This document shows, one piece after another, positions 27,301-61,800 of a stretch of 64,000 nt of DNA; position 1 is the first letter of the stretch, and each line of letters begins with the position of its first letter. The position numbers and the translations under genes are program-made. The stretch spans positions 34,389,176 to 34,453,175 of the forward strand of contig CM049311.1 in the NCBI GenBank assembly GCA_026874595.1, read 5' to 3'. Below the pieces are notes generated by a model. It worked only from the letters and a program-made list of their open reading frames with translations. It searched no databases and was not told where the DNA came from. The DNA is from Sipunculus nudus. Its lineage: Eukaryota; Annelida; Sipuncula; Golfingiida; Sipunculidae.

Positions 27301-30300
27301 ATCCCAAATGGCTAGCTTTGCAAATTTTATGATCATCAGAATGACCAATAGAATGCACAGCCAAAATATTTGATTACTTTGTGCCTAAATCAGTGTCTAC
27401 ATGATGTCATCTAACTTGTAAATATTTCTGCACTCTTGTATATTGAAGGTGAAGCATATGATCATGACTGGCATGATGATTTGTGCATGTCATTTGCATA
27501 TCATTATTTTTACTTGCAGTTATCAGCATTTTATTACAAATAAAATTTTGTTATATCTCATGAAATGCATGGGGTATTTAATAAAATCCAGATTTGGTCA
27601 TTAATATGTAAGATGACTGTATACTTGTTTGTATGTGTATGTACATTTGTTACATCAATTTCTGCTCTTGTGTATATAACAACATGATATGAGATGGACT
27701 TTACCGAGGAGAAGGCATTTTGATGCTAACATTAACACTTCTGTTAATATGAGGATAAATATAGCAAATGGAGCTTGCATGGTAGATAGAATATTATATG
27801 TCATTGATATATAACACTAATAACCATATTAACCAAAACAAGAAAACTCATTGGTATGGTGCAAAATGGCTGGAGCAAGGAGTCAACTAATTTTAAGTTT
27901 GTGGTTTATGTTATAACAGTATCCATGGAAACTAAGTTGTAACCATAGAAACTGTAACCATCAGTGATGCTCTGTATTCATCTCTACAGAAATCTAGTCA
28001 GTATGAGGGTGTGAACAAGTTATATGACATGGGTGATGAGCCGGACCGTCGACCCTTCTTGGACGCATTATTTGCATTGATGGAAGAAAAGGGTACCCCC
28101 CTGACGGCGATGCCGACCATCACAAAACAACCGCTAGATCTCTACAAGATGTACATGTCTGTTAAGGAACGCGGTGGCTGCATCGAGGTAACAACACATG
28201 CTGAGTTCTCCATCATTTCTGAAATGACTTTTTAGATAATTTATAATAAAGAATAACATCATTAAAATTTTATTTGATCCAAAAGCTTTTGAGTCTTCCC
28301 ACAAAAATGGGCTTTAATGCTTTATAAACGTTGATGGGTCCACTACTGCTTCTTATAGAAAATTTCAGGCAAATTTCAGCATGTGTCATTGTTAGAGTTT
28401 CACATAAATAATATAACAACTTGCAATCACCAGATCAGGATTTCTTAGTTAAATTTTCTAAGACCTAATTAGTTTAAGCATCTAAAAAAATGTACATAGA
28501 TACCTCATTTTCTTTAATGTTTATCTTCGTCTGATAAGATTTCTGTCATGCGGACTAATTTTTTGTGAAAATTAAACATCTGTAGTTAACATCTGTTATA
28601 AACTGTTGTATGGATATTCATGGAGAGACTTTCTTTGTAACCAAGATTTATGATAAATATCATACACCTGGTTGACATATTACCTTGTTACAGGTGAGTC
28701 GAGGAAAAAGATGGCGAGACATCTGTGCTTGCTTGAATATCAACACATCTGGAAGTGCTGGCTTTGCTGTTCGGAAAAATTACATCAAATTTGTATTGCC
28801 ATACGAGTGCCGTTATGACCGAGGCAACTGTGACCCCACCCCAATTATTGCTCAAGTGGAACAATTGTCACAGAAAAAGGATAAACGGAAAGAGAATGCG
28901 GCAAATAAAGGTTAGTCATATGACAGAACACACAAGTACAAATTAAGACCCCACCCTTTCTTGTTTGACACTAAATTGTACATTGATGTACCTTATACCA
29001 AGAAGACAGACAAATATTCAAACAGACATGTAAAGCTATACAAGCGGGAAGACTGACAGACAGCAAGACAGATACTCATACAAACCAACAGACATCATTA
29101 TATTCTTTGCAGAGTTGACTTATAATTACATATATTGACTTATGGTGGGCTTGGGACAGTATTTCTATATTAAACTTTGAAACTTACAGTTTTAACTTTG
29201 CAACATATACTCCTTCTGAAGTTCTCTAAAGATATGTGTTTTTTGGAATATACTTTCAAGCCTTACATTTTAGTTTGAGTGAGATTAAGATTTAATGAGA
29301 GAGTGTAAAACATTCATTTTGAGTTCTTTCAAACATTTATTATTTCTGACTGTGAAAATTTGTCCTGATTTTGGATTACAGCTGCAGCATCAGCCATCCA
29401 GAACTCCATGCCCAACTCCATGGACCCATTCCGTCACCCCAGTGTGCCTAACAACCAAGGTTTTGATGGCTTCATGCCTGGTGGTCAGAGACCACCCCCT
29501 ATCCCTAATACTGACATGCCAGGACCTCCTAACACGTCAATCCCCCCAGGCACCAATATGATGGTCAACCAGATGAACACGGATGGAATCCCTCCGCAAG
29601 GACCCAACGGCAACATGATGGTGAACAGCGGTATGATGCCAAACCACATGAACAGCAACATGCCAAACAGCCAGTTGATACCGCCGAGCATCCCTCCTGG
29701 TGGTCACGACAGCATCAGCGTTCAGGACCCATTTGCTGACCAGCCACCCAGTGGGAACCAGTATCCTCGGCAGCCCATGAACTCGCAAATGCCGCCGTTT
29801 TCCAGCATGCCACAGCAAAGCATGCAGAACTCCTATTATAATAGTCGGCCCCAAATGACCTCCAACATTCCATACTCATCCAGCCAGTCTGGAAGCTTCA
29901 GTGGACCCCCGGGAGCGAGTATGCCCCGGATGCCAAGTCAGCCCAGTGAGCAGATGGGTGGACCGTTTCCTCCACGCGGGATGACCCCTCAGGAGGGTTT
30001 CCCGAACCGTGGGAGCATGCCGAGCTCGAGCATGCCACCAGAAGGAAGCATGGCCAACAGCCAGTTCCCACCCAACCAGTCCAGCATCAGCCATTCCAAT
30101 CAGAACAACCAGTTACAGTTCCCATATGGGCCACAATATAACAGGGAAAGGTAGGTCTTGAATCTAATACAAACTTATAGTCATGGGGTAGTACATAACA
30201 GGGCTTTCAAAACTTTGAAGAGTTTAGAAAACTTGGGCCAAGATGTTGGAGAGTCCCATCTTAGTTTGACGCATCCTAAGGGGAGACTGTGTGTCAATTC

Positions 30301-33300: not shown

Positions 33301-36300
33301 GACCAGTGTGGGCTTATTTTCCAAGTATGTTAGTTCTGCTGTTGATACTCATGTGCTGCCTCCCTGTTTTGTAGACATGAGACGGGACAGTCAACAATGG
33401 ACACCTAGTCGCCCAGGATGGCCACCAGGTGGGGCCAACTCTCCATACATGCAAAGACCAAGGGCTTCCCCACATCGGTTTGTCCCACAGAAAATTCAGG
33501 TGCTGAAAATATATATACAAATTATTGTATTACATCCATTAAACACATATAAATTTTTAACTTGTGCATGACAACTTTTGTGAGATTTCATTTTAAAATT
33601 GCAGTGAGGTATTTTGTACTTCAGGTGTTTGCACTTTAGTACATACCTTTTTTTAATGAGAAACTTATATTTTAAATTAATATGGACAAATAATTGTATC
33701 GGGACTAAGACCTGGGGAATATCATTTCCATGTAAAGGCTTTTTAAAATATTTTGTAATGTAATGATGTTTCCGAAGTTAAGATGTACTTCAACACTAAA
33801 TTGCTTGACCAGATCAAACCAAACCTTGATTTAGGGTCTTGCATGACCTGTATCACACCCCTCATCAAAGATTCATGGAGATTGATTTGTTAGTCTTGCT
33901 AACAGGAAAAAAAATTAAAACAAAGGAGAAGACATAACTTCCTCTGAGATGATAATGTGACACCTTCCTGTTATTGAACATAAATATTTGTTCTTGCATA
34001 AATTTTATATCAGGTGGGTTAAAGTTTCATTCTTGTTTGGCTGGTATGAGAGTGGTTTTAGCTTTATGTGCTACTGTAAAATAAACCCTACACGTTTGGG
34101 ATGCTGATCATACAGTGACTTGCAGTATGAGACAATGACATCTAATATTTTGACTTTCAGAAGCAAGGATCTGTGACTAACCAGTATCCTCCGAGGAAGG
34201 AGATCGTGTTTCCACCCGACTCTGTTGAATCCACACAGCCTTTGCTGGTCAAACGCAGGAAGGCACGATCAAAAGATGTTGGTAAGTAGCAAAACACTAC
34301 TTAGCTGTAATGATAATAACATCCCAGGTAGAAAAGAGAAAATCTTTCATTAAATGTTTTAAAATATTATACATATTCGCATGAACCCACTCCTGCACAC
34401 ACACTTCAAGTGCATTAATAAAATCATTTTGATAACCCACCCATTCAGATGGATTTTACATGCAATTCACCTTGGACATTAATGACTAAAGTCTTTTTAA
34501 GAAAAAAAAAAACATATCTATGAGGGTCTTAGTTGCTTTATCTGAGAAAAGAAAATTCTTTTTCACAAGTAATGATATTCAAGAACATATGGTGTTGTCA
34601 TCCAGAAGCGGATCCTTACTTTCTTGTGTTCATTCAGACACTTGATCCTAACTTTCTAATTGTTGTTCTCATTCAGACACTGATCCGAACTTTCTTATTG
34701 GTGTTCTCATTCAGACACTGATCCTTAGATTCTTTTTATTGTTTTCATTCAGGTATTGATCCTTTTTGTCTTATTATTTTCAGCCCCTGTTGATCCCTGG
34801 AAGTTGATGCTTGCCCTGAAGTCCGGTTTGATCGCTCAGAGTTCCTGGGCTCTGGACACCTTGTCCATTCTGCTGTATGATGATAGCACTGTTGCTTACT
34901 TCTCCCTCAACCACCTGCCGGGCTTGATTGAAGTGCTGCTAGACCACTTCAGGCACTGTCTTCGTGAGATCTTCCAACTCTGTTCTGATATGGAACTCGG
35001 TAAGAGTGCTGCAAAAGCTCCTGAAGAGGAAGACGTTAAGGATAGTCCCAAGCAGTGTCTGATGAATGGCTCCGGGGATTTTACCTGGCTGACACGACAG
35101 GGCAAAGCTGTCAAGTTAGAAGATGATTCAAAGGATGAAAGTTTTGTGCTCGATGACAAAAAGTGGGATGTATACGACAAGTTTTGTTCCTCGCGTGAAG
35201 ATTGGGATGTTGGGTATGGTGATATTTCGGATAATATAATCTTAAACCTGGAACATTCTGGTCAGAGGGATTTCTTTAGGCAGTGCTTCTTTGGTAAGAA
35301 ACACACAGAAGTTTCGGAGGAATCTGAAACTCGAGAGCTTGATCAGGACATGTCCAGTGAGAAACACGAGGAGTGTAAATCTAGTGCAGGGGATGATGTG
35401 TTAAATAAGTGTGAAAATCAAAGCATGTGCAGTCCAAAATCAGGGGTTGATACAGAGGCGGGTTGTGAAATCAAAGGCAGCTGTACTGACTGTAACATAA
35501 GTGTCAAAAAAGAGCAGGAGGACTCTGATATAAAGACTGACCCTGCTATCAAAACAGAGCAATCAGAGGAAGACCAGAGTTGTCAAAAGGACACTGCCAC
35601 TGAAGGGGAACAAGCAAATAGCCCAGGGAATAATGTTAAACAAGAAAACACTGTTAATGCGGATGGCCAGGTGAACATAGACATTGACCAGCTTTTGCGA
35701 AAACGTTTAAAGAGGAAATTGGAAGTTAGTGAGGAGCTTGAAAATGAGGCATATCAGCATGATAACTCACCTCTGTCTTTGATCTCAGACTCTCAAGAAG
35801 AACTATCCAGACGCTGTATCTGTGTATCCAACATTTTCCGCAGCCTCTCTTTCATTCCCAGCAACCACTGGGAAATGTCGCAACATCATGGACTCATTTT
35901 AGTGTTAGGTAAGCTGCTGACTCTGCACCACAACCATCCCCAGCGAAAACGCATCCACCGCGGTTTTGACCGGGAAGAAATTCCTGACAACGGTGAGGAT
36001 TACGTGGAGACGGGTGACAGAGATTGGTGGTGGCACACCCTTGACTTGCTTCGTGAAAATACCCTCGTCATACTTGCCAATATTACAGGGCAGATGGCCC
36101 TAATTAAGTACCCTGAGGAGGTGTGCTCCCCTCTGCTGGATGGGTTGTTACACTGGGCCACATGCCCCGCTGCCTGTGCTCAGGACCCGCTGCCAACAAT
36201 GTCGCTGAATTCCGTCCTGTCACCACAGCGATTGGTGTTGGAGGCCATGTGTAAACTGTGTGTACAAGAGAACAATGTTGATCTGATTCTAGCAATGCCT

Positions 36301-36744
36301 CCCTTCTCACGCGTTGTACAGCTGTTCAGTATCCTGGTCAAAAACTTAGCTGACAAGAAGATCCAGGTACTTCGTGAGTTCTCAATAGTGTTGCTTTCTA
36401 GTTTGGTTCAGGGAGACAGCAGTGCAGCACGTGCTGTTGCCATGGAGCACCCTAGTGTCTCGCTTTTGTTAGATTTCATTGAGAACGCAGAGCACCAAGC
36501 AATGCAGGTAGCGAAAGCCCACGGAGTGAACATGCTGCGAGAGAACCCAGAAATGATGGGAACAAGCTTGGATATGCTTCGAAGAGCAGCCGTCACACTT
36601 AAATTCATGGCAATGGTGCCCAGTAATCGATCTTTCTTCATGCACCATGAGCAGCGTCTCCTTGACCTAGTCACCTCACAAATTCTCGACCAGAACGTGG
36701 CAGCCATTTTGGCAGAGGTCTTATTTCACTGCTCCTCGTCATAG
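6147..36744 (+). CDS. ARID1: ARID1 (BAF250/Osa-type SWI/SNF subunit), 15 exons, 5' end outside window
   Basis: Whole-gene entry; exons are listed separately. Exons join at 6147-6330, 8824-8916, 19938-20081, 21261-22172, 22668-22939, 23900-24004, 27990-28187, 28694-28910, 29382-30150, 30729-30999, 31235-31400, 31906-31995, 33375-33499, 34161-34281 and 34784-36744. All have AG/GT borders and compatible phases, summing to 5,628 nt (1,875 residues plus stop). In this partial protein the ARID spans about residues 580-690 and BAF250_C runs from about 1223 to the end, with an acidic insert near 1297-1557. Vertebrate ARID1A has about 2,285 residues, so roughly 400 N-terminal residues probably lie upstream. 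ARID1 proteins are nuclear; they bind DNA through the ARID and define canonical BAF complexes. The match to ARID1A is strongest in the ARID, in the FPPxSVExTQP segment before the last exon, and in BAF250_C (LLRENTLV, LSPQRLVLE, NNVDLILA, PPFSR). A single gene is expected in invertebrates, so A versus B cannot be assigned. Confidence 0.96.
6331..8823 (+). other. ARID1: ARID1 intron
   Basis: AT-rich intron with consensus ends. I see no exon, RNA gene or clear mobile element. The short open frames are chance ones. Confidence 0.7.
8824..8916 (+). CDS. ARID1: ARID1 coding exon, PMPPPRPPSNQ motif
   Basis: A 93-nt exon entered after one base of a split Gly codon. It reads GNQTGSPMPPPRPPSNQ then VEGPNRIQSPMAAQ and leaves in phase 1. 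The MPPPRPPSNQ stretch recalls a proline-rich motif found in ARID1/Osa N-terminal regions. Splice sites are ggtttcag and gtaggt. Confidence 0.9.
8917..19937 (+). other. ARID1: ARID1 intron, 11 kb, with minisatellite
   Basis: The longest intron in the window. Apart from the 38-bp minisatellite at 9138-9997 it is unremarkable AT-rich DNA with a poly-G run near 15268-15280. No exon with matching phase was seen. A short segment at 15540-15680 is more GC-balanced but shows no recognisable feature. Confidence 0.65.
9138..9997 (+). repeat. 38-bp minisatellite, about 23 copies
   Basis: Direct tandem repeats of a 38-nt unit containing CTTCTTTTAGGTTGTGCTGT followed by GATAACTTAGTCACTGGG. Three copies (near 9256, 9370 and 9940) share a shorter 35-nt variant in which TTGTGCTGTG is replaced by a form such as ATGTGC. 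Copies are otherwise very alike, so the array is young or homogenised. It lies about 220 bases downstream of the second visible ARID1 exon. Confidence 0.95.
19938..20081 (+). CDS. ARID1: ARID1 coding exon, Gly/Pro/Met/Asn-rich
   Basis: A 144-nt exon, phase 1 in and out, read as (G)YHPQQVMPPPIGPNQMG through GNQHMGPYPPQQ to FPNQ. It resembles the GY/MGPP-type low-complexity stretches of ARID1. Acceptor tctgcag, donor gtaggt. Confidence 0.92.
20082..21260 (+). other. ARID1: ARID1 intron
   Basis: 1.2-kb intron with consensus ends. Nothing else recognised. Confidence 0.75.
21261..22172 (+). CDS. ARID1: ARID1 large low-complexity exon
   Basis: A 912-nt exon, phase 1 in and out, starting (G)NYGRPGMPSYGGHPNAYS. 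It holds the Ala-rich segment SPKGAQVAAQAAVMAAAS, which resembles a similar stretch in ARID1A, and then Pro/Ser-rich tracts. Near its end VKSE (in DQAVKSEAESS) fits the SUMO consensus (hydrophobic-Lys-x-Glu). No fold is expected here; such regions of ARID1 are disordered and mediate multivalent contacts. The last codons read VANSDT(G). Confidence 0.96.
22173..22667 (+). other. ARID1: ARID1 intron
   Basis: 495-nt intron (gtatag ... tttccag). Nothing else recognised. Confidence 0.8.
22668..22939 (+). CDS. ARID1: ARID1 coding exon, Met/Pro-rich
   Basis: A 272-nt exon entered in phase 1 and left in phase 0. It reads (G)DTSTTLTQSIKCPITTE, then MKSEPHPSIPPSMPPHP, and ends ENSPAEKYRPK. MKSE is another weak SUMO-type consensus. 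The Met/Pro repeats are typical of the region upstream of the ARID. Confidence 0.94.
22940..23899 (+). other. ARID1: ARID1 intron
   Basis: 960-nt intron, AT-rich, consensus ends (gtatga, ttttcag). Nothing else recognised. Confidence 0.75.
23900..24004 (+). CDS. ARID1: ARID1 coding exon with SSPSWPGTP motif
   Basis: A 105-nt phase-0 exon reading ENISHPPQAVSSAQGS, then EDFENVSSPSWPGTP. A Trp-Pro-x-Thr-Pro motif (often WPRTP) is, as I recall, a conserved short motif N-terminal to the ARID in ARID1/Osa proteins; here Arg is Gly. Strong acceptor (gttttcag) and donor (gtaagt). Confidence 0.85.
24005..27989 (+). other. ARID1: ARID1 intron, contains tandem repeat R2
   Basis: A 4-kb intron. The first 320 bases are GC-richer and contain a Pro/Tyr-rich open stretch (24127-24320) that may or may not be a cassette exon. 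Repeat family R2 occupies about 25715-26780. The rest is AT-rich DNA with a short (TTG)n run near 25090. Confidence 0.65.
25715..26780 (+). repeat. Dispersed/tandem repeat R2, copy 1
   Basis: Starts near the phrase gccaaaacgaagttatg and contains about two to three tandem units of roughly 265-280 bases. Each unit carries ATCTCGGGAACCGTTTGACC-type and AAATCACTC-ATATCTCTGCAG-type blocks and one or two gapped forms of the palindrome GGTGGCGCCACC (for example 26028-26039). The same family begins again at 63522. Short open frames on the minus strand repeat each other in sequence because they lie in successive units. Class of element unknown. Confidence 0.85.
27990..28187 (+). CDS. ARID1: ARID1 exon: first half of the ARID DNA-binding domain
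   Basis: 198 nt, phase 0, residues 571-636. It begins KSSQYEGVNKLYDMGDEP, with DRRPFLDALFALMEEKGTP, and ends KQPLDLYKMYMSVKERGG-CIE. This matches the start of the ARID of ARID1A (NEPER..VDRYLAFTEEK, KPLDLYRLYVSVKEIGG). The ARID binds DNA through a helix-turn-helix-like core; ARID1 members bind with little sequence preference. The donor is GAG/gtaaca and the next exon continues VSRGKRW. Confidence 0.98.
28188..28693 (+). other. ARID1: ARID1 intron inside the ARID domain
   Basis: 506-nt AT-rich intron, consensus ends. It splits the ARID between the GGCIE and VSRGKRW segments. Confidence 0.8.
28694..28910 (+). CDS. ARID1: ARID1 exon: second half of the ARID domain
   Basis: 217 nt, residues 637-709, phase 0 in and 1 out. 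It reads VSRGKRWRDICACLNINTSG, then AVRKNYIKFVLPYECRYDRG. This aligns with ARID1A [20 protein letters not shown] and the [20 protein letters not shown] segment: the C-terminal ARID helices and the conserved Tyr-Glu-Cys end. A basic run (KKDKRKEN) follows the domain. Confidence 0.98.
28911..29381 (+). other. ARID1: ARID1 intron
   Basis: 471-nt intron (gttagt donor). Nothing else recognised. Confidence 0.78.
29382..30150 (+). CDS. ARID1: ARID1 exon after the ARID, Pro/Met/Asn/Ser-rich
   Basis: A 769-nt exon, phase 1 in and 2 out. It begins (A)AASAIQNSMPNSMDPFRHP. SISVQDPFADQP corresponds to the SVGIQDAFNDGS motif of ARID1A, and the end QFPYGPQYNRER corresponds to the QFPFQFGRDR-like motif. The intervening Met/Pro/Gly/Asn tracts show no folded domain. 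The acceptor is ggattacag; cagctgcag three codons in is an alternative AG that would drop a few residues. Confidence 0.96.
30151..30728 (+). other. ARID1: ARID1 intron
   Basis: 578-nt intron, gtaggt donor and tgttgcag acceptor. Nothing else recognised. Confidence 0.8.
30729..30999 (+). CDS. ARID1: ARID1 exon, Gln/Pro-rich
   Basis: A 271-nt exon, phase 2 in and 0 out. It reads FGPPQQPQQQSGQPAPAPP through SMPGMHGPPNSMGPSPG to QGQSFQGQRSFQ. It is the equivalent of the polyglutamine/proline tracts of ARID1A, though the Gln run here is short. Confidence 0.93.
31000..31234 (+). other. ARID1: ARID1 intron
   Basis: 235-nt intron, gtcagt donor, tttacag acceptor. Confidence 0.8.
31235..31400 (+). CDS. 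ARID1: ARID1 coding exon
   Basis: 166 nt, phase 0 in and 1 out. It reads GQEPPFSSYQGQQPVMSQ through VRDMGLSTPPKSYPPN to ERSNTFPMN. Low-complexity linker; identified from its phase, its splice sites (tttacag, gtaagt) and composition matching its neighbours. Confidence 0.92.
31401..31905 (+). other. ARID1: ARID1 intron
   Basis: 505-nt AT-rich intron. Nothing else recognised. Confidence 0.78.
31906..31995 (+). CDS. ARID1: ARID1 small coding exon (30 codons)
   Basis: 90 nt, phase 1 in and out. It reads (S)FGQSPSGPPMFMEGMNDP then LVPFDMMKAHA. Removing it would keep the frame, so it could be skipped as a cassette. No homologous motif recognised; supported by splice sites (aacag, gtatat) and phase. 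Confidence 0.85.
31996..33374 (+). other. ARID1: ARID1 intron
   Basis: 1.4-kb AT-rich intron. A pyrimidine-rich stretch with repeated tctc motifs follows the donor (32028-32085). Nothing else recognised. Confidence 0.72.
33375..33499 (+). CDS. ARID1: ARID1 coding exon
   Basis: 125 nt, phase 1 in and 0 out. It reads (D)MRRDSQQWTPSRPGWPP then SPYMQRPRASPHRFVPQKIQ. It occupies the place of the ARID1A segment with SPSKSPFLHSGMKMQK, just before the FPPxSVE block. The donor gtgctg is weaker than the others in this gene, which could allow alternative use. Confidence 0.9.
33500..34160 (+). other. ARID1: ARID1 intron
   Basis: 661-nt AT-rich intron. Nothing else recognised. Confidence 0.78.
34161..34281 (+). 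CDS. ARID1: ARID1 exon with conserved FPPDSVESTQP block
   Basis: 121 nt, phase 0 in and 1 out. It reads KQGSVTNQYPPRKEIVFPPD, then SVESTQPLLVKRRKARSKDV. Strong match to ARID1A [29 protein letters not shown]. The basic run KRRKAR could serve as a nuclear localisation signal. It leads straight into BAF250_C in the next exon. Confidence 0.97.
34282..34783 (+). other. ARID1: ARID1 last intron, with tandem repeat at its 3' end
   Basis: 502-nt intron. The last 175 bases are an imperfect tandem repeat that reproduces the CAG-plus-TGATCC pattern of the real acceptor and exon start. Confidence 0.8.
34608..34783 (+). repeat. Imperfect 35-40-bp tandem repeat overlapping the last acceptor
   Basis: Four to five degenerate units, each with TTCATTCAG or similar, then a few bases and TGATCC, then a T-rich stretch. 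Examples follow the CAGs near 34640, 34680, 34714 and 34752. The true exon begins cagcccctgttgatccc, a diverged version of the same pattern. Confidence 0.75.
34784..36744 (+). CDS. ARID1: ARID1 last coding exon: entire BAF250_C domain
   Basis: A 1,961-nt exon ending in TAG at 36742-36744. It begins (A)PVDPWKLMLALKSGLIAQSS with WALDTLSILLYDD, aligning with ARID1A [31 protein letters not shown]. The second half has RRCICVSNIFRSLSFIPSN, DWWWHTLDLLRENTLVILAN, GLLHWATCP, SVLSPQRLVLEAMCKL, NNVDLILAMPPFSR and a Ser-Ser C-terminus. In vertebrates this armadillo-like domain docks ARID1 onto the BAF core. Between the two conserved halves (about 35005-35790) lies a long Glu/Asp/Ser/Lys-rich insert with five SUMO-type motifs and a basic patch (LLRKRLKRKLE) near 35691-35723. 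ARID1A also has an acidic insert here, so its presence is normal; its sequence is not conserved. Confidence 0.98.
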
Positions 36745-52054: not shown

Positions 52055-52094
52055 GATAATAATAATAATAATAATAAAAATAATAATAATAATG

Positions 52095-52181
<87 letters not shown>

Positions 52182-52469: not shown

Positions 52470-52470
<1 letters not shown>

Positions 52471-52545
<75 letters not shown>

Positions 52546-52611
52546 AATAATACTAATAAAACTACTACTACTACTACTAATAATAATAATAATAACAATA
52601 ACAATAACAAT
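52471..52611. repeat. Compound (AAT)n(AAC)n(AAT)n(ACT)n(AAT)n array
   Basis: Successive triplet blocks that differ by single substitutions, followed by (AACAAT)n. Confidence 0.95.
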
Positions 52612-52792
52612 AAACATATATTGCTTTATACTTATTAATATATTTATAAAATATTAATTTATTAATATAAAGTGAGAGCAACTGAAAATTTTGCCCGCTT
52701 GGGGTCTTTACGGTGGCTATTATCTCCTGGTGCCATCTCACGGATGACCTAGACACTAACAGAGGTGAACATTAAATCTAGTGTCAACAGAC

Positions 52793-52833
52793 ATGGCAGG
52801 ACAGGCGCTACCATGGAGCAGATATTTCTTCAG
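52793..52833 (+). CDS. MPC1: MPC1 exon 1 (start codon)
   Basis: ATG in good context (agacATGG). It reads [13 protein letters not shown] plus AG, 41 nt, ending at a gtaatc donor. SRYFF(ST) aligns with RDYLM(ST) of human and KYIFT(TH) of yeast MPC1, and MAG matches the start of human MPC1. A second ATG at 52813 is out of frame. Confidence 0.8.
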
Positions 52834-55800
52834 GTAATCATATCCTGGTTTGATTGTACTTTAATTAGCACTGTGATGTTGTCGTAAATGACATGCGAAT
52901 GCCGGCCAAGGGTCGTCAATGGTATCTTAGAGCTGTTATTGACGGAAAACTTCTTAAAATCAAGAAAACATGCCAACATCTGAGATTCACTCAACTGGGT
53001 CTCGGTTTTGTAGACTGTACTGTCACTATAAATCTATATTAATTATTATATAGTATAGAATTGTTTATACAATAGTGATACTATTACTGTATAGACACGT
53101 CATTAAGATTAGATAAGAGGAGATCGAGTATTCCGGGTGTGTCCTGAATGTAGTTCTTGCAGCACACGTCTTTACCCACCAAGGACTATGAGTATCAGTG
53201 GTATTGTATTTATAAGACTGATAGCTCAGAGAGAAAATTATTGTAACCTGAATATAGGGAGATGTTCTGATTTCTTTCTTCTTGGTCAGGGTTCAGAGTG
53301 TCTTGAAATTTATATTCGGGAATCAGGTGAATACTTTTATCTGTATAGGTGCCTTATACAGAGTTCAAATGACACATATTTTTATACAGGAACGTGTGGG
53401 TTCAATGTGTACTGTAATAAACACTCAACTAGTGAACCCACATTTATATTTTTATAAGAAATCTCACACTTCTGCCTAAGAACCCAGAACATTTTGTGCA
53501 AAGTAAACCCACTCTTGCAGTTTTGGTATTTTTGTCAATGATGTTACATAAAGCGTCAAGAAAAATAATTAAAAAAGTGATGCTTATTTTTTACTGCATA
53601 TTTTTGTATTATAAATTAGTATTGTATATAACTTATATAAGTATATTGTAGAATCATATTAGGCGTTGAACTGACCTTTTTTAAAAAGAAAATGTAGGTT
53701 CACTTCATGTTTTAGCTGATCTTTTTATGAATATGGTGAACCCACATTTGTTATTTTTGTCACATATCGCGTTAAAAAATAAGGCAAGAAATGATGTTCA
53801 TTTTCCTTTACAGCTTATACAAATGATATGATCATCAATATTATTTATACTAGGGAATAGTAGAAAAACAAAAATGTAGGTTCAGTTTCTGTTTTTGCCC
53901 CCTGAAGTTCAGCCCCATATAATGCACCTATGTACCCTTTTATCTGTTAACAGGGTTTTATATTGCTATATGATGTACAACTGATAGCAAGTTCCTTAAA
54001 GCCCCTAGTTAGAATGGAGAATAGATCTAATTCATATACCAGTATTTAAATTATTTACACTGTAAATCAGTCATTAAAACCATAGAAACAAATGATGGTG
54101 TAACGAAAGGCCTAAACTTCATCCCTCATTAATATTTTCTATTTTATCAGATAAAAGGTTCTTTCTATATGCAGTCACCTTTTAGGGAAAAGGTTCCAAA
54201 AGATTACAAATGAAAATATAAATGTATGAAACATTCATGTACAAGGGGTTACAGTTCAGCCAGTGCACGTGGTGTAATGTGTAACTTTTTGACACGCAAG
54301 ACTGTTTATAAACAAGTTTGATATGACTGATCTATGACCTGTTTAATCACTGGGGGTTCACACTTATCCATGTATGTTATCATTGAGTTGTTGCATGGTT
54401 TAGTTTACAAATGCACATGGCTTGTTAGTGGGAAAACTTGTATATAAACCCGGCATATGTGACATGGGTTCTGCTTGAGAAATGGAGCATAAATGTAAAC
54501 CAGTGATCAGCAAGGTCACTTCAGGCACAAGTACACTTACGTATATATTAGGAACACGAGTTATACATGTAGTGTATACATTAATAAACATTACACCTTG
54601 AACATGAGCATGCATAAAGCTGTGCTATGGAGCTCACTAATGAGTCCAGATCTTTGTGCTTTGATGCGTCAGAGATGAGTTTTGAATGATTCCAAAAAAG
54701 GACAAACCTTTTACTGTCTCATGTTTTTAGATTAAGTGCATAAATGTAACTGTAGATATATTAATTAATATGTAATGCTTTCTGCAAACAGGGTGCTATG
54801 GTATGAAGCAAACATTTGAATTTGAACCCAAGGTGGTTGTGTTCTCAGCTGTGTCTGTTTGTTTATGTACTCTACTGAGTGCCATTAGACCTGTCAATTT
54901 TGAGGGGCTTTGAATTGATTCTTGACCGCTGATATGATTCTCAATTCAATTATTACTTTAGTAGTAAAGTTCAGACTTTCCTTCAAGTATATTTTCTTAA
55001 TATTATAACAAATATTTTACAGTACCACAATGATGTCAGTTAATGTTAGAAACTAATGGAAAAATGTAGCATGATCTCTGTTTATGGCCACCCTTTTTTC
55101 AGTGTAAGTGGAGTACTTTAACAGCGATCTTGAACACATACACAATAAATAATCTTGACATCACAGTGTGCTCCATCAAAGTGGACAGATCGGTGAGACT
55201 TTTGGTGTGATGCGTAAATCAAATACTATTCAAAACAAATTCATTTGGAGGTGATGCATTGATTACAGTTTAGTGATGCATTGATTTACAATTCAGTGGA
55301 TGAATCAGGAGTCAAAAATAGCTTTTCGGTCAACAGATAATTCCAGAACCACCAAAATGTGCACACAATGTCCACAAACCTTGAGTCTTTATACAGTGTC
55401 CCTTGAACACCTCCCTATAAGAAGAGTCAGTCCAAGACTGCTGAACACACACCAAAATGAGGAGCAGTCCCTTTGTCTTCTATGTTACTCTTCTGGCTAT
55501 TAGTCAGTTTCTCAATAGGATGTATCATCTTTATAGCATCATCCTCAGCCATCAAATATTTTCTAAAAGCCACAGGACAGGCTTACAGGATGACTTCTGC
55601 AGCCCAATTGTCATCAACTTACAGAGTCTCGTGGAGGAGGATGCCTGAATGACTTTGATCCAATGGAGGTTTCTCCTCTCAGGCTGTCATAACTGGCTGG
55701 TTGTCAACTGGTAGCTCACTGATGTTGCTTGTGTAAACATGCCTTTAATTTCCACTGGTGAAAAATCACCTTACTACCCTAATAAAAAGAGACCAAGCAT

Positions 55801-58800
55801 TTTGTCATTTGCGTATGAGAGGTCACACTTTCACAATTATGGGCAGCTGATATTACTGTATATCTTAAGTCATTTATGCAATATATGACTGGATTATGTA
55901 AATCTCTCTCAAAAGTAAGAATAGATGTTTATCTATGAATATATGATATTCTATGATACCACTGATTATTAAACTAAATATGTGTGAACTGCAGTTGATT
56001 AGCTTTTTCATAGTGTAACGTACAAAATAGGTGATAATGTTTTAATAAGTCGCACTCTGAATGACTTCTCTAAAGAAGAGAAATAATTTCAAGTTTCCAA
56101 ATGATTATAAAGACCATGGCATCACTATCTGAGACAAAAATGTGTATTATGTATAAATGTATGGTCACATAATAATTCAATTACCTAAACAAAAATGTTT
56201 GTTATTATTATTGTATTATTGTACATTGGAATGTTAAACTTAAAGTAAAATGGTTACTTCAAAGACAGTATTCAACCAAACTTCAGATAAAACTAGATAA
56301 AACCTGTTTTATCTGATCCGGATTAATCCAGATTTATCCAGATTTAACCGGCTGCGGATAAAACTGCCAACCCTGCTTCTGTGGGTTTTAAACATGTACC
56401 AATATGTGCAGGGCTGCAGGCTATAATCTGTTTCGTCCCCTCATGTCCACCTGTTTTGCTATGAAAATTTTTATTTGTTACTTTCCATGGGAAACAGTTA
56501 AATAGGTAAATGCCTCCCTTACACCTTATTTAAGAAAAAAAAATTGAAAATATGGTAAATCAGTCTACATTTAGACAACATACCAGACCCACTTTGGTGG
56601 TCAGGGTCATTGGTCACATGCAGACACAGCCTCAAGTGACAGTTGCTGATTGGATGATGTCATGTAACACTCTTAAAATACAACCAGCTAAAACAAAGAT
56701 GGCTACTCATGCAGGAACACATCAGATCTGCCAGACCATTGTGAAGAGGCTGAAAAGTTTGAAACACAAACTTGGCATAAATTGTAGAATTCTTAATTTC
56801 CATATTAGGTTGTCACTTCCATATACTTTACTATTAAGGAAATTATTGTAAAAAGTAAACTTTTAAGAAAATTATCTACAAGAAACAGGTTGACAGCAGG
56901 TTGTGAAAAGAACTATATAAAGTACAGAAAGGCCCATCTGGGTCTAATATATAAACCTTGCCCACTCAAACTGAATTATATTGTTATCTTTTCTTTTTTT
57001 TTTCATGTTCCTGTGGCTGTGTTCTACATCAACAGCACAGTAAGTATACAGTTCTAATGCTGTTTTCAGATCTATTCACATAGTTATAATTGATTATTGT
57101 ATTGTAACCACATGTCAATGAATGTGCTATGTCACTGGCAGTTTTCAGAACACAAAGTCAAGTGCATGTCAGTTAGTGCTGCGCTGATGCACCCCAGTAT
57201 GTGGCTGTGCACCGATCCATAACGATAAAAAAAAATCATATATTGTATCAGTGTCATTAGGTGCCCATGTATCCAATTATCCGTATATTTGTGATTTTTT
57301 TTTTTTCATGTAAAGCAACAATGGAAAGCTAATCTTGTAGTCTCTCAGCACCCCACAATACATGTAAGGTAATCATTAGTCAGAAATGAGCTTAATAGCA
57401 TCTGATTTGTTTTGATTTGATTCTATTTACGGTTTTGAAAATAAATTTTATCAGAGCAAATTTGAGTTATATTTCTATATAGAAGAAAATTGACTTGAAA
57501 TCTAACCCATGATATACATTTATATGTTTAATTTAATCAAAAATATCTTAGACATTGCAGTGATTTTAAGTGTCGCAGTATGTATCACATCACCACCCCC
57601 TGGGCATTCTTTGGTCCCCATCTAATTTGTCTGTAATTTATTATAAGGGATGGCACAAATAATCATCAGTGTTGTATACAATCATCAATGGCTTTGACAA
57701 AAATAGATACTGTTAGTGTTATATATTAGCTCATCTGTTTATACACTTACTAGCACACTAGACAGAAGGATTTTCAAATTTATTTTTATCAGCATTAAAT
57801 GAAAATTTTACATACATATTAATTTATTTGAAAAGTGCCTTCCCTCATGGCTGGCATTTAATATGACAGGCTCTGATTCAGGTCAGACTGTTGTAGAATT
57901 ACATAATTTTTTTATATACTGCACAGTAATAAAGATCAGGGGTTTCTGTAAAAAGTGTGGGATTCAGTGAATTCTGTGGTGAAAAATAAATTTTCTGCCC
58001 TACCTGACCCCATGGTCTTGTAAAAAATTTTGCCATTTTTAAGCCCAGCAAAACACTTGATGCTTGATTGTTCAGCTTAATGGAAATAGCTAACCGTTTA
58101 TCACTCTTAAGTATTTAATTGTGTACTATAGATGTAATATAGGATATTATTTCTTGTCATACTTAAAAAAGGTTTTCTTTTATCATTGCAGCATTTTTGG
58201 GGACCAGGTAAGAGATTAAATACCTCACTCTCTCTCTTGTTATCTCTGACTTTGCACACATACACCCATGCAAGATATACAGATTTACATGAAATATTTA
58301 TACATATCCATGTTTCTGAATATTGTCCCCAGCAGTTCCATTCTAGTGTCATTCACTGTGATTCAGACTTGTTGTTAGCATTCACAACATCTGCTTGATT
58401 ATACAGTGTTGTAAAGAAGTGTTTGCCAGCAGTGATTCATAAAGCAATTTCAGTTCCTGCTCATAAACTTTTGATAGCACAATATAAAGCTCTGATCTAC
58501 TACATGGCTATAATACAAGGGTAGGTCAAGTCTGATTTATTTCTAAATACTGTAGACTGTCAGTGCTGAATGTGGCAATAAGTAACAATACAATATATTT
58601 TGTATTATTTTGTATGATTTATTTTTGTTATCCATGGAGAATGTACTCGTTAAATCAGAAATCATGTACATGTCCCCTCTATTTAAATTCTAATTTTCAG
58701 TTGCCAATTGGGGTCTTCCTCTTGCTGCTATAGCTGATGCTCAAGACAACCCTGAGAAAATCAGTGGTAAAATGACTACAGGTAAGGCCTTCTTCCTACA

Positions 58801-61800
58801 AGCAAGGCTGTCAATCCTTCGTGAAGAGACCTTGCTCCAACAAGCCACTGTGCCTGCTGTTTCATGAACTGAGAAGAAGATCATAGTTATTTCAATCAAA
58901 ATTATAACAGTCAATCAAATCCAACATAACACAAGCAAACATTACACAGTGGTCAAAATGGTTGATATGTCATATAAAGAAGAACGAATGCACCAGAAAC
59001 TGGATTGGTTTATGACTTTATGATCCTTTCTTCTAAGTAACCTTCTGTCATAGCAAGATCTTATTACCGTCAAATAGTTACAGATTTATTTTGCTCTGCG
59101 CATACAGGGAGCGTAATTTAATTGCTTTGTCTTATTCACTGTTCATGAAATAGCAGACAGGGTGCTTACTGGAGCAAGGTCTCTGTTGCAGATCAAGAGC
59201 CTTACTTATAGGAAGACAACATGAGGGACCCCCTTTCTGATTGAATTATTTGGGAATATATTAATAATCTCTCATACTCTACTTTGCTGCTTAAAAATTT
59301 CTTTGGTACATATGTTATATAAATTACTTGTAATTTTACTTGTGCTATATGGTTGGATGATATTCCTTATTGAATAGGATTAAACTTGTTACATTTTTGT
59401 ATAATCAGTCACAAATGAGAATGTTTCCACATGCAAGGAAGTCATGTTATTTTCAATAAAATTCTGTCAGAAAATTTAGAGGGATCGGACATGAAGTAGA
59501 AACCAATGTTAAAACTGAACCCTGAGCAGTGTCCAAAACTGGGGCCATAAGCTTGACATGTCAGTGTGACTGCAAATAAACATTTTGTTATTAGGCCAAA
59601 ACACATAAAGGTATGGTTCCCAGGCATCGCCCGCATCAATTTTAACCCCCGCATCAAAATTTTCATTTTGATTTTCATCTTTCAAGAAGATATAATAATA
59701 CAATGTTGATAAGATTTCCTTTGTTATGTTGTGCTTTTACCTGTTTAACCAAAAAATTCTGTTATATCAAGGTTTTCCCTGATCAAATGACAATTTCATC
59801 GAAACATACAAAAAGTGGTAAACTATAAAATATCCCCCACCTGTACTTTTTGAGAAAAAAAAAGTGCCTTAGAACCATGATACCTTTTATGGTCTTAGTC
59901 TTCTTTTAAAACTTGTACCCAGTCTACAGTCACCAGTCTGTTTCTTGATAAGTATGTTTACTATGTCAACATGGTTTATCATGTTTTTTTTAGGATTACT
60001 GATGTGTATTAGTGTAGATCAAAAAGGGATTTCATAAACTAGTTCCTACTCTACCTGCAATGTATAACATGTTTATTTTTGTGCATATGAAATTTGTTTA
60101 TTAAATATGTGAATACTTAATCTTCAGTAATGCATAGACTGGACATTAATCTTAAATATTTAACAAGAAATATTTATTTTCATTCAGTTATCATTAAACT
60201 GTTACTGTATTGTGATTGGCTGCTTTCCTGATCCTGCTGTTCTGATTGGCTACTTGACTTATCCTGCTGTTTTGATTGGTTACAGCCCTCTGTATCTACT
60301 CAGCTTTATTTATGAGATTCGCCTGGAAAGTCCAACCAAGAAACATGCTCCTATTTGCCTGCCACTTCTCTAATGAATGTGCACAAATTGTACAGCTTTG
60401 CAGATTTTTTGACTATCAGTAAGTATACTTCTGTGTTTAAAATTTCTGTTACTTTTCACCAGGATTCAATGATCACTTAGGTTTGACATATCTTAGCATT
60501 GGTTTAACACCCTGTTTGAGGATAAAGAACGGTATTGGTAAGGAGGTTAAATTTTTCAAATGTTTGAACAAGTTTGTTTGTCTGTCTGTTAGCATTATGC
60601 TTACACTTCAGAACTTATCCTCAAAACTAGTGTGGGATGGGATATGGCCAGGGAATAGGGCTGAAATGGTTACAAAATTTTGAACCGAAGTTCCCAATAG
60701 GCATTAACTGACTCAGACTTGCGTATTCTTTGCCATGGCAACAATGTAAAGATATAAATGTAGATCTGTTTACTGATGAAAGATATGTAAAAATTTGACT
60801 TGGTGACAGCTTAACTTTCTCCCAAAGAAATAAGTATTTTATATATAATTGGTTTCTGTTTAGCAAATAAACTTTAGTGTCATAAATTACCTCTGTTTAC
60901 TTTTCACTGGCAGCTGTTTAAAACCTCCTTGATAATGAATAAATATAGACTGCCTGTAAGTTTGCAATAATATTAAGATATGCATATACCGACACACAAG
61001 TACTTCAGTCCGAATTTGGGACTCGTGTACTCTGTAAGTATTAACCAGACTCAAGTCCTCGGGTAACCTATTTGGCCCTACTAGGGAAGACCCAATAAAA
61101 TTTGGTGTTTGTCCAGATAAATTTGAGCTCTTCTGTAGGTGTCCTTGATATTTTGTGTGGATGAAAGTGATCATTGTGACACAAAGATCAGTTGTTATAA
61201 AAACATATACCGGTAGATGTGATAAAACATTATATTCATGCCAAATAATAATGACCCAAGGCTGAGTCTTTTTAGGCTTTTCTGCAATGGATTGGGGGGG
61301 GGGGGGCTTCTATTTATATATTGATATGTGATCACTCGGCCACTGTTGATTGTTTTGCTTAAATATAAACTTATTTATTTTACAAATTGCATGCATTAGA
61401 CTACTTTACTCCATTCCACCACCCCTGTCAACATGATTTTTCGTGATAATTTTTTATGTAATTCACTCAAGCTTACCTTTATTTACATCAGAGGCAATTC
61501 AGACAAATTTGGCATTTATCTTACAGCAAAATCATGCTTTCCTGTGTATGGAATTCATATGATTAATTTCAGAAAGAAATATGAAATACGTTTAAGCTGA
61601 CAGTCTTAAATTAGATATATAGTTGTAAAGTCACAGAGGTATTTGTACATCACATGTTAGTTACGTCACACATACTTTCCTCCTACATGGCATAGATTTA
61701 AACAGGTATGGCCATTTGAACTGACGATAACATTTTTGCACCTCTTTCTAGACAGGTCAACACCATCCACGTGTGACAATTGAAGTAAATATTTCTATTT

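Follow-up and report, generated by a model that had tools for sequence, protein, structure and literature searches.

The window, that is, the whole 64-kb stretch of Sipunculus nudus DNA that was analyzed, carries a single MPC1 gene on its forward strand, at its right end (Table 1). The five introns of the gene (4202, 1152, 493, 1504, and 1908 nt) are all of the GT-AG type, and joining the six exons gave one reading frame of 125 amino acids followed by a stop codon, with an in-frame TGA located nine codons 5' of the ATG. The predicted protein scored 120.6 bits against Pfam MPC (cut-off 27), and comparison with human MPC1 and MPC2 gave 122 and 40 bits, respectively, indicative of MPC1 rather than MPC2. 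Identity to human MPC1 was 63% (54 of 86 aligned residues), and the STHFWGP motif was aligned without a gap. A search of the 1.43-Gb genome, in which the best candidates are scored, returned no second MPC1-like locus, and a search of the same genome for a retrocopy of the spliced MPC1 mRNA, again with the best candidates scored, returned none and detected only the separate exons of the locus. The MPC1 protein gave three pattern matches to viral contigs, none of them a relative. Long trinucleotide runs of the AAT/ATT, AAC, and ACT types are present just 5' of exon 1, at ~ 52061-52180 and 52470-52610.

Table 1. Predicted exons of the S. nudus MPC1 gene and sequence features around the CACA microexon. 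Positions are those of the window; negative numbers are counted upstream of CACA.
Feature	Position	Strand	Details
MPC1 coding exon 1	52793..52833	+	41 nt; 13 residues + AG; phase 2 end; donor gtaatc (score 3.4)
AG-free stretch before acceptor AG (AG exclusion zone)	56932..57033	+	102 bases
Candidate distal branchpoints	56965..56974	+	A at -68 (CTCA) and A at -62 (CTGA); consensus match only
Distal pyrimidine tract	56988..57012	+	23/25 pyrimidines; -48 to -24 of CACA
MPC1 microexon CACA	57036..57039	+	4 nt; acceptor aacag; donor gtaagtat; last base of Ser and whole Thr of STHFWGP
MPC1 coding exon 3	58192..58207	+	16 nt; HFWGP + G; phase 0 start (CAT) after ttgcag; donor gtaaga
MPC1 coding exon 4	58701..58781	+	81 nt; own-genome protein match 78% over residues 17-52
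MPC1 coding exon 5	60286..60418	+	133 nt
MPC1 coding exon 6 with stop codon	62327..62429	+	103 nt
mRNA junction expected with exon included		+	TTCTTCAG-CACA-CATTTTTGG; exon 1, microexon, exon 3

The translation of exon 1 is a fitting N terminus when set beside the human ...RDYLM sequence, and the exon ends exactly where mammalian MPC1 exon 1 is expected to end; no GT listed at 52781-52884 scored above its donor. This boundary, and that of exon 3, were located independently of CACA. Between the phase-2 end of exon 1 and the phase-0 start of the HFWGP exon, a total of 1+3n bases is missing. The addition of CACA to the terminal AG of exon 1 gives AGC ACA, that is, Ser-Thr, while a computed join of exon 1 straight to exon 3 shifted the frame and led to an early stop. 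The preliminary description had arrived at this exon from the same phases, and its main sequence-level claims were borne out: CACA does lie between aacag and gtaagtat, the need for 1+3n bases is satisfied in a six-exon frame, and Ser-Thr falls just before HFWGP with no gap against human MPC1. The sequence CACAGTAAGTA, which marks the CACA site, occurs once on the forward strand of the window. With 4 nt between AG and GTAAGT, and canonical splice sites, the exon as predicted belongs to the microexons (about 30 nt or less). Its final base is an A, where exons usually end in G.

Splice sites were scored with approximate splice-site frequencies for metazoans, acceptors being scored over 20 nt, and the scores are therefore rough. 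Candidate spans were those running from AG to GT that were open, no longer than 300 nt, of the right length modulo 3, and with an acceptor at least 40 nt into the intron (n = 288). CACA ranked fifth among these frame-compatible open spans (summed score 4.28, proximal model), being outranked by three spans from the acceptor at 53290, one of 37 nt and two longer, and by a 1-nt span at 55103. The CACA donor (+2.5) was ninth among the 343 GTs of the span, and the acceptor scored +1.8, as compared with -0.5 to 6.1 for the other MPC1 acceptors. A frame-compatible exon scoring at least 4.28 was contained in 80% of 500 simulated introns, for which the median best score was 6.1. On splice strength alone, CACA is not beyond chance.

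One interpretation of these data is that CACA is a chance match and that the true MPC1 mRNA uses some other first exon or some other short exon. The splice scores, not significant by themselves, and the higher-scoring spans speak for such a reading, and a second match of the form AG-CACT-GT was indeed found in the intron at 52867. This second match, AGCACTGT (exon 52869-52872), was rejected: it would need a 35-nt intron, and both its donor (-2.5 vs. +2.5) and its acceptor (-1.1 vs. +1.8) are inferior to those of CACA. The 1-nt span at 55103, which would supply Ser alone (Pfam MPC 117.8 bits), was also set aside. Moreover, another first exon is hard to reconcile with an exon 1 that both provides a fitting protein start and stops exactly at the expected mammalian boundary, and the two flanking boundaries had been found without recourse to CACA. 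Taken together, this reading was considered extremely unlikely. The claim that CACA was the only candidate thus needs amending for the existence of AGCACTGT, although that match is weak and lies only 35 nt from the donor.

The residues demanded by the family were then considered together with the splice scores. Ser-Thr endings were found in 6 of the 288 spans, all of which use the CACA donor, the 4-nt span being by far the best of them. Among the 18 frame-compatible 4-nt spans listed, a list covering acceptors at least 40 nt from the donor, CACA alone gives Ser-Thr. In a simulation of 1500 introns of equal length (order-2 Markov), four introns (0.27%) contained a 4-nt Ser-Thr exon whose summed splice score equaled or exceeded that of CACA, and 10 contained any equally good Ser-Thr-ending exon of up to 61 nt. 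The pattern AG-Y-AC-N-GTRAGT occurs once on the two strands of the 64-kb window, against an expectation of 0.006 per simulated intron, or about once per 0.9 Mb (n = 1500). The earlier rough estimate for AG-Y-AC-N-GTAAGT was one chance occurrence in several hundred kilobases; the simulated figure applies to the GTRAGT form. When the Ser-Thr required by the family is added to splice strength, CACA stands out from chance.

A 4-nt coding exon at this place has a published precedent. Exon 2 of human MPC1 is described as a constitutive 4-bp microexon, TACG, that has been tested experimentally (Koh, Shin and Kim 2023, PMC9929638). According to that paper, transcripts skipping the exon were undetected in 786-O cells, even when nonsense-mediated decay was blocked, and other human and mouse lines included the exon almost completely; in reporters, a 3' splice-site region of 67 nt together with 6 nt of the donor sufficed, and splicing was still possible when the exon was cut to 2, 1, or 0 nt. 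A mouse MPC1 qPCR primer, ATGAGTACGCACTTCTGGGG, given in work on mouse animals and microglia (PMC10127063), reads M-S-T-H-F-W-G, with the arrangement AG-TACG-CAC. From this primer and the protein alignment we strongly infer that the published human TACG is the TACG of AG-TACG-CAC. The S. nudus arrangement, AG-CACA-CAT, has an insertion of equal length at the same site and with the same phases (2 in, 0 out).

The likeness to mammalian MPC1 exon 2 therefore comprises the gene, the length of 4 nt, the Ser-Thr codons of STHFWGP, and the phases, and extends to a good donor, a distal pyrimidine tract, candidate branch-like sites at similar distances, and two long flanking introns. The two differ in the letters of the exon (CACA in S. 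nudus, TACG in mammals), in the position of the tract (-48 to -24 here, -67 to -43 in human MPC1), in the flanking introns (4.2 and 1.15 kb here, over 12 and 3 kb in mammalian MPC1 as given in PMC9929638), and in the following exon, which is only 16 nt in S. nudus. In addition, splicing has been tested for human MPC1, whereas that of CACA is predicted from the genomic sequence. The interpretation favored, for which a probability of about 0.95 was estimated, is that CACA (57036-57039) is constitutively included in MPC1 mRNA as a 4-nt coding exon and that its mammalian orthologue is the 4-bp exon 2. The human TACG exon and the mouse primer thus lend support to the 4-nt MPC1 microexon that had been proposed from the S. 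nudus sequence, and CACA is very probably a conserved orthologue of a microexon that was already known; it is a peculiarity of long standing that has been conserved, not a novel one. Note that PMC9929638 refers, through a supplementary figure, to conservation of the MPC1 exon and adjacent intron across species, and invertebrate MPC1 cases may therefore already be known. This was the sole paper on the MPC1 microexon among the literature matches listed. Neither MPC1 nor pyruvate is mentioned in the main text of a Drosophila study of microexons or in that of the MicroExonator paper, and the main text of a plant microexon paper uses '4-nt microexon' once and 'pyruvate' not at all.

The strongest competitor by splice score was the 37-nt span at 53290-53326, which could link exon 1 to HFWGP, as a constant or an alternative exon, leaving CACA as a chance match. 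This span is open and frame-compatible, ranks first among the 288 (acceptor 6.9, donor 4.9, sum 11.7), and has a sum that was reached in only 2.8% of 500 simulated introns. The resulting protein, however, scores lower: AG plus 37 nt encodes 13 residues, so that the Ser-Thr kept in human MPC1 is replaced and 11 residues are added, and alignment to human MPC1 gave 115.7 bits instead of 122. The score against Pfam MPC falls as well, from 120.6 bits with Ser-Thr to 117.9 bits with the 37-nt exon, but this drop is modest, as Arg-Ser gave 117.9, Ser alone 117.8, and the removal of both residues still 119.3 bits, and Pfam scores therefore hardly separate the alternatives. The main argument against the 37-nt exon is that human MPC1 has a 4-nt exon at this very place and that mouse cDNA has the matching codons. 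Nor would the two exons work together, since their lengths of 37 and 4 nt should shift the frame when combined. The use of 53290-53326 in place of CACA was accordingly judged very unlikely, and the span is possibly a decoy or an unproven minor alternative exon. No repeats of the surrounding stretch were found within the window.

The sequence upstream of CACA was compared with what has been proposed for the human exon. The final 20 nt before CACA form an ordinary, mediocre acceptor, and the pyrimidine tract lies farther upstream, where it was the best among the seven acceptors compared. The strong polypyrimidine tract noted in the preliminary description is thus real in composition but distal in position. 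In human MPC1, a tract with 22 of 25 pyrimidines extends from -67 to -43, and branchpoints were mapped at -68 and -64, the latter given as -63 in the Discussion (PMC9929638). A scan for YTNA over the last 100 nt before CACA found four branch-like As, at -89, -68, -62, and -31, and those at -68 and -62 are located just 5' of the tract, as are the mapped human branchpoints. As an A at an ordinary distance (-31) is also available, the sequence does not demand the use of a distal branch. Of the 3623 AGs examined in the window, 3 combine an equally good tract between -70 and -5 with at least 60 AG-free bases, a count that is descriptive and not an independent test, since the thresholds were taken from the CACA site; the CACA acceptor is the only one of the three with GTRAGT shortly downstream. 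Note also that the acceptor of MPC1 exon 5 has an AG-free stretch of 96 nt, and a long AG-free stretch is therefore not special by itself.

The layout at CACA is what would be expected under the mechanism proposed for human MPC1. In such a mechanism, a branch A some 62-68 nt upstream, together with the distal tract, would serve as the assembly site of U2 and U2AF, which at this distance would leave space for U1 on the GTAAGT that begins 4 nt past the acceptor AG. With 102 nt devoid of AG, the acceptor AG would be the first AG met after the branch site. The introns of 4202 and 1152 nt would then be excised as separate lariats, as was observed for the flanking introns in human MPC1 minigenes (PMC9929638).

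Even shorter exons are on record, and while the preliminary description was fair in placing CACA among the smallest known coding exons, 2-bp human exons (PMC9929638) and the 1-nt exon of Arabidopsis APC11 (PMC4674806) are smaller. The 1-nt exons of plant APC11 and VPS55 (PMC8831610) are, like CACA, ultra-short, long kept in evolution, and easily missed by annotation; they differ in being from plants, in other genes, and shorter still. Tiny human coding exons whose length is not a multiple of three are described for TNNI1 (4 bp), KSR1 and TMEM237 (5 bp each), and MUSK (7 bp) (PMC9929638). These share with CACA their very small size, their coding nature, and the frame shift that follows from skipping, but they belong to other genes, and their islands were reported to be poorly spliced in the MPC1 reporter test (PMC9929638). 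The neuronal SRRM4-dependent microexons are likewise short and reliant on upstream intron signals; in contrast to CACA, which is not a multiple of three and is needed for the frame, they are mostly 3n in length, alternative, and brain-specific (PMC9929638).

From the 63% identity to human MPC1 over 86 residues, we infer a non-vertebrate animal. What is new at this locus is an apparent non-vertebrate orthologue that keeps the length of the exon and much of its layout. A 4-nt exon with a distal-branchpoint layout was probably present in the common ancestor shared with mammals and has been held at 4 nt since, with two successive microexons in the present gene. If true, this would be among the oldest documented constitutive microexons of non-3n length. 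If CACA is spliced as predicted, a frame-shifting exon of 4 nt has stayed the same length from mammals to a distant animal, and loss of the exon from the mRNA would break a central metabolic protein. Because skipping CACA shifts the frame and stops the protein early, near-complete inclusion would be required. The resemblance in distal tract and branch-like sites could serve as an independent test for the mechanism proposed for human MPC1. There is also a practical side, in that gene prediction and standard RNA-seq alignment can overlook an exon of this size, with the result that MPC1 is called broken or truncated.

Exon 3 (58192-58207, CATTTTTGGGGACCAG), at 16 nt, is also a microexon, and the gene consequently has two microexons in succession, separated by the 1152-nt intron. 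With a 4-nt exon followed by one of 16 nt, two very small exons would have to be recognized by the spliceosome in succession. A perfect 7-base inverted repeat, AACAGCA/TGCTGTT, is present at 57031-57037 and 57058-57064. It may form a small hairpin enclosing the acceptor together with the 5' end of the microexon, with the donor in the loop, and it may have arisen by chance.

Upstream of MPC1, on the same strand, the window contains a gene of the ARID1/BAF250/Osa type at 27936-28232 and 34729-36741 (ARID 48 bits, BAF250_C 360 bits). In human, MPC1 and ARID1B are both located on 6q, and an old linkage is therefore possible.

A search of the genome for the COX1 family gave 11 matches, eight of which were taken up as loci, and no mitochondrial contig was recognized among them. 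The mollusc haemocyanin domain PF14830 gave no match, and neither did its control. Contigs C60-C89 and C123 are bacterial-looking, with a COX1/ctaD-type gene at 37-39% GC in the four loci measured; the gene on C123, at 53% GC, is one that we take to be CcoN-like. Four of the COX1/ctaD-type loci are 97-98% alike to locus L004, and three others gave 22% against L004 by a plain position-by-position count, probably as they lie in the opposite orientation. These observations suggest that the bacterial-looking contigs come from symbiont or contaminant strains. A short COX1 match on contig C5 contains an internal TGA and may represent a scrap of mitochondrial DNA in the nuclear genome.
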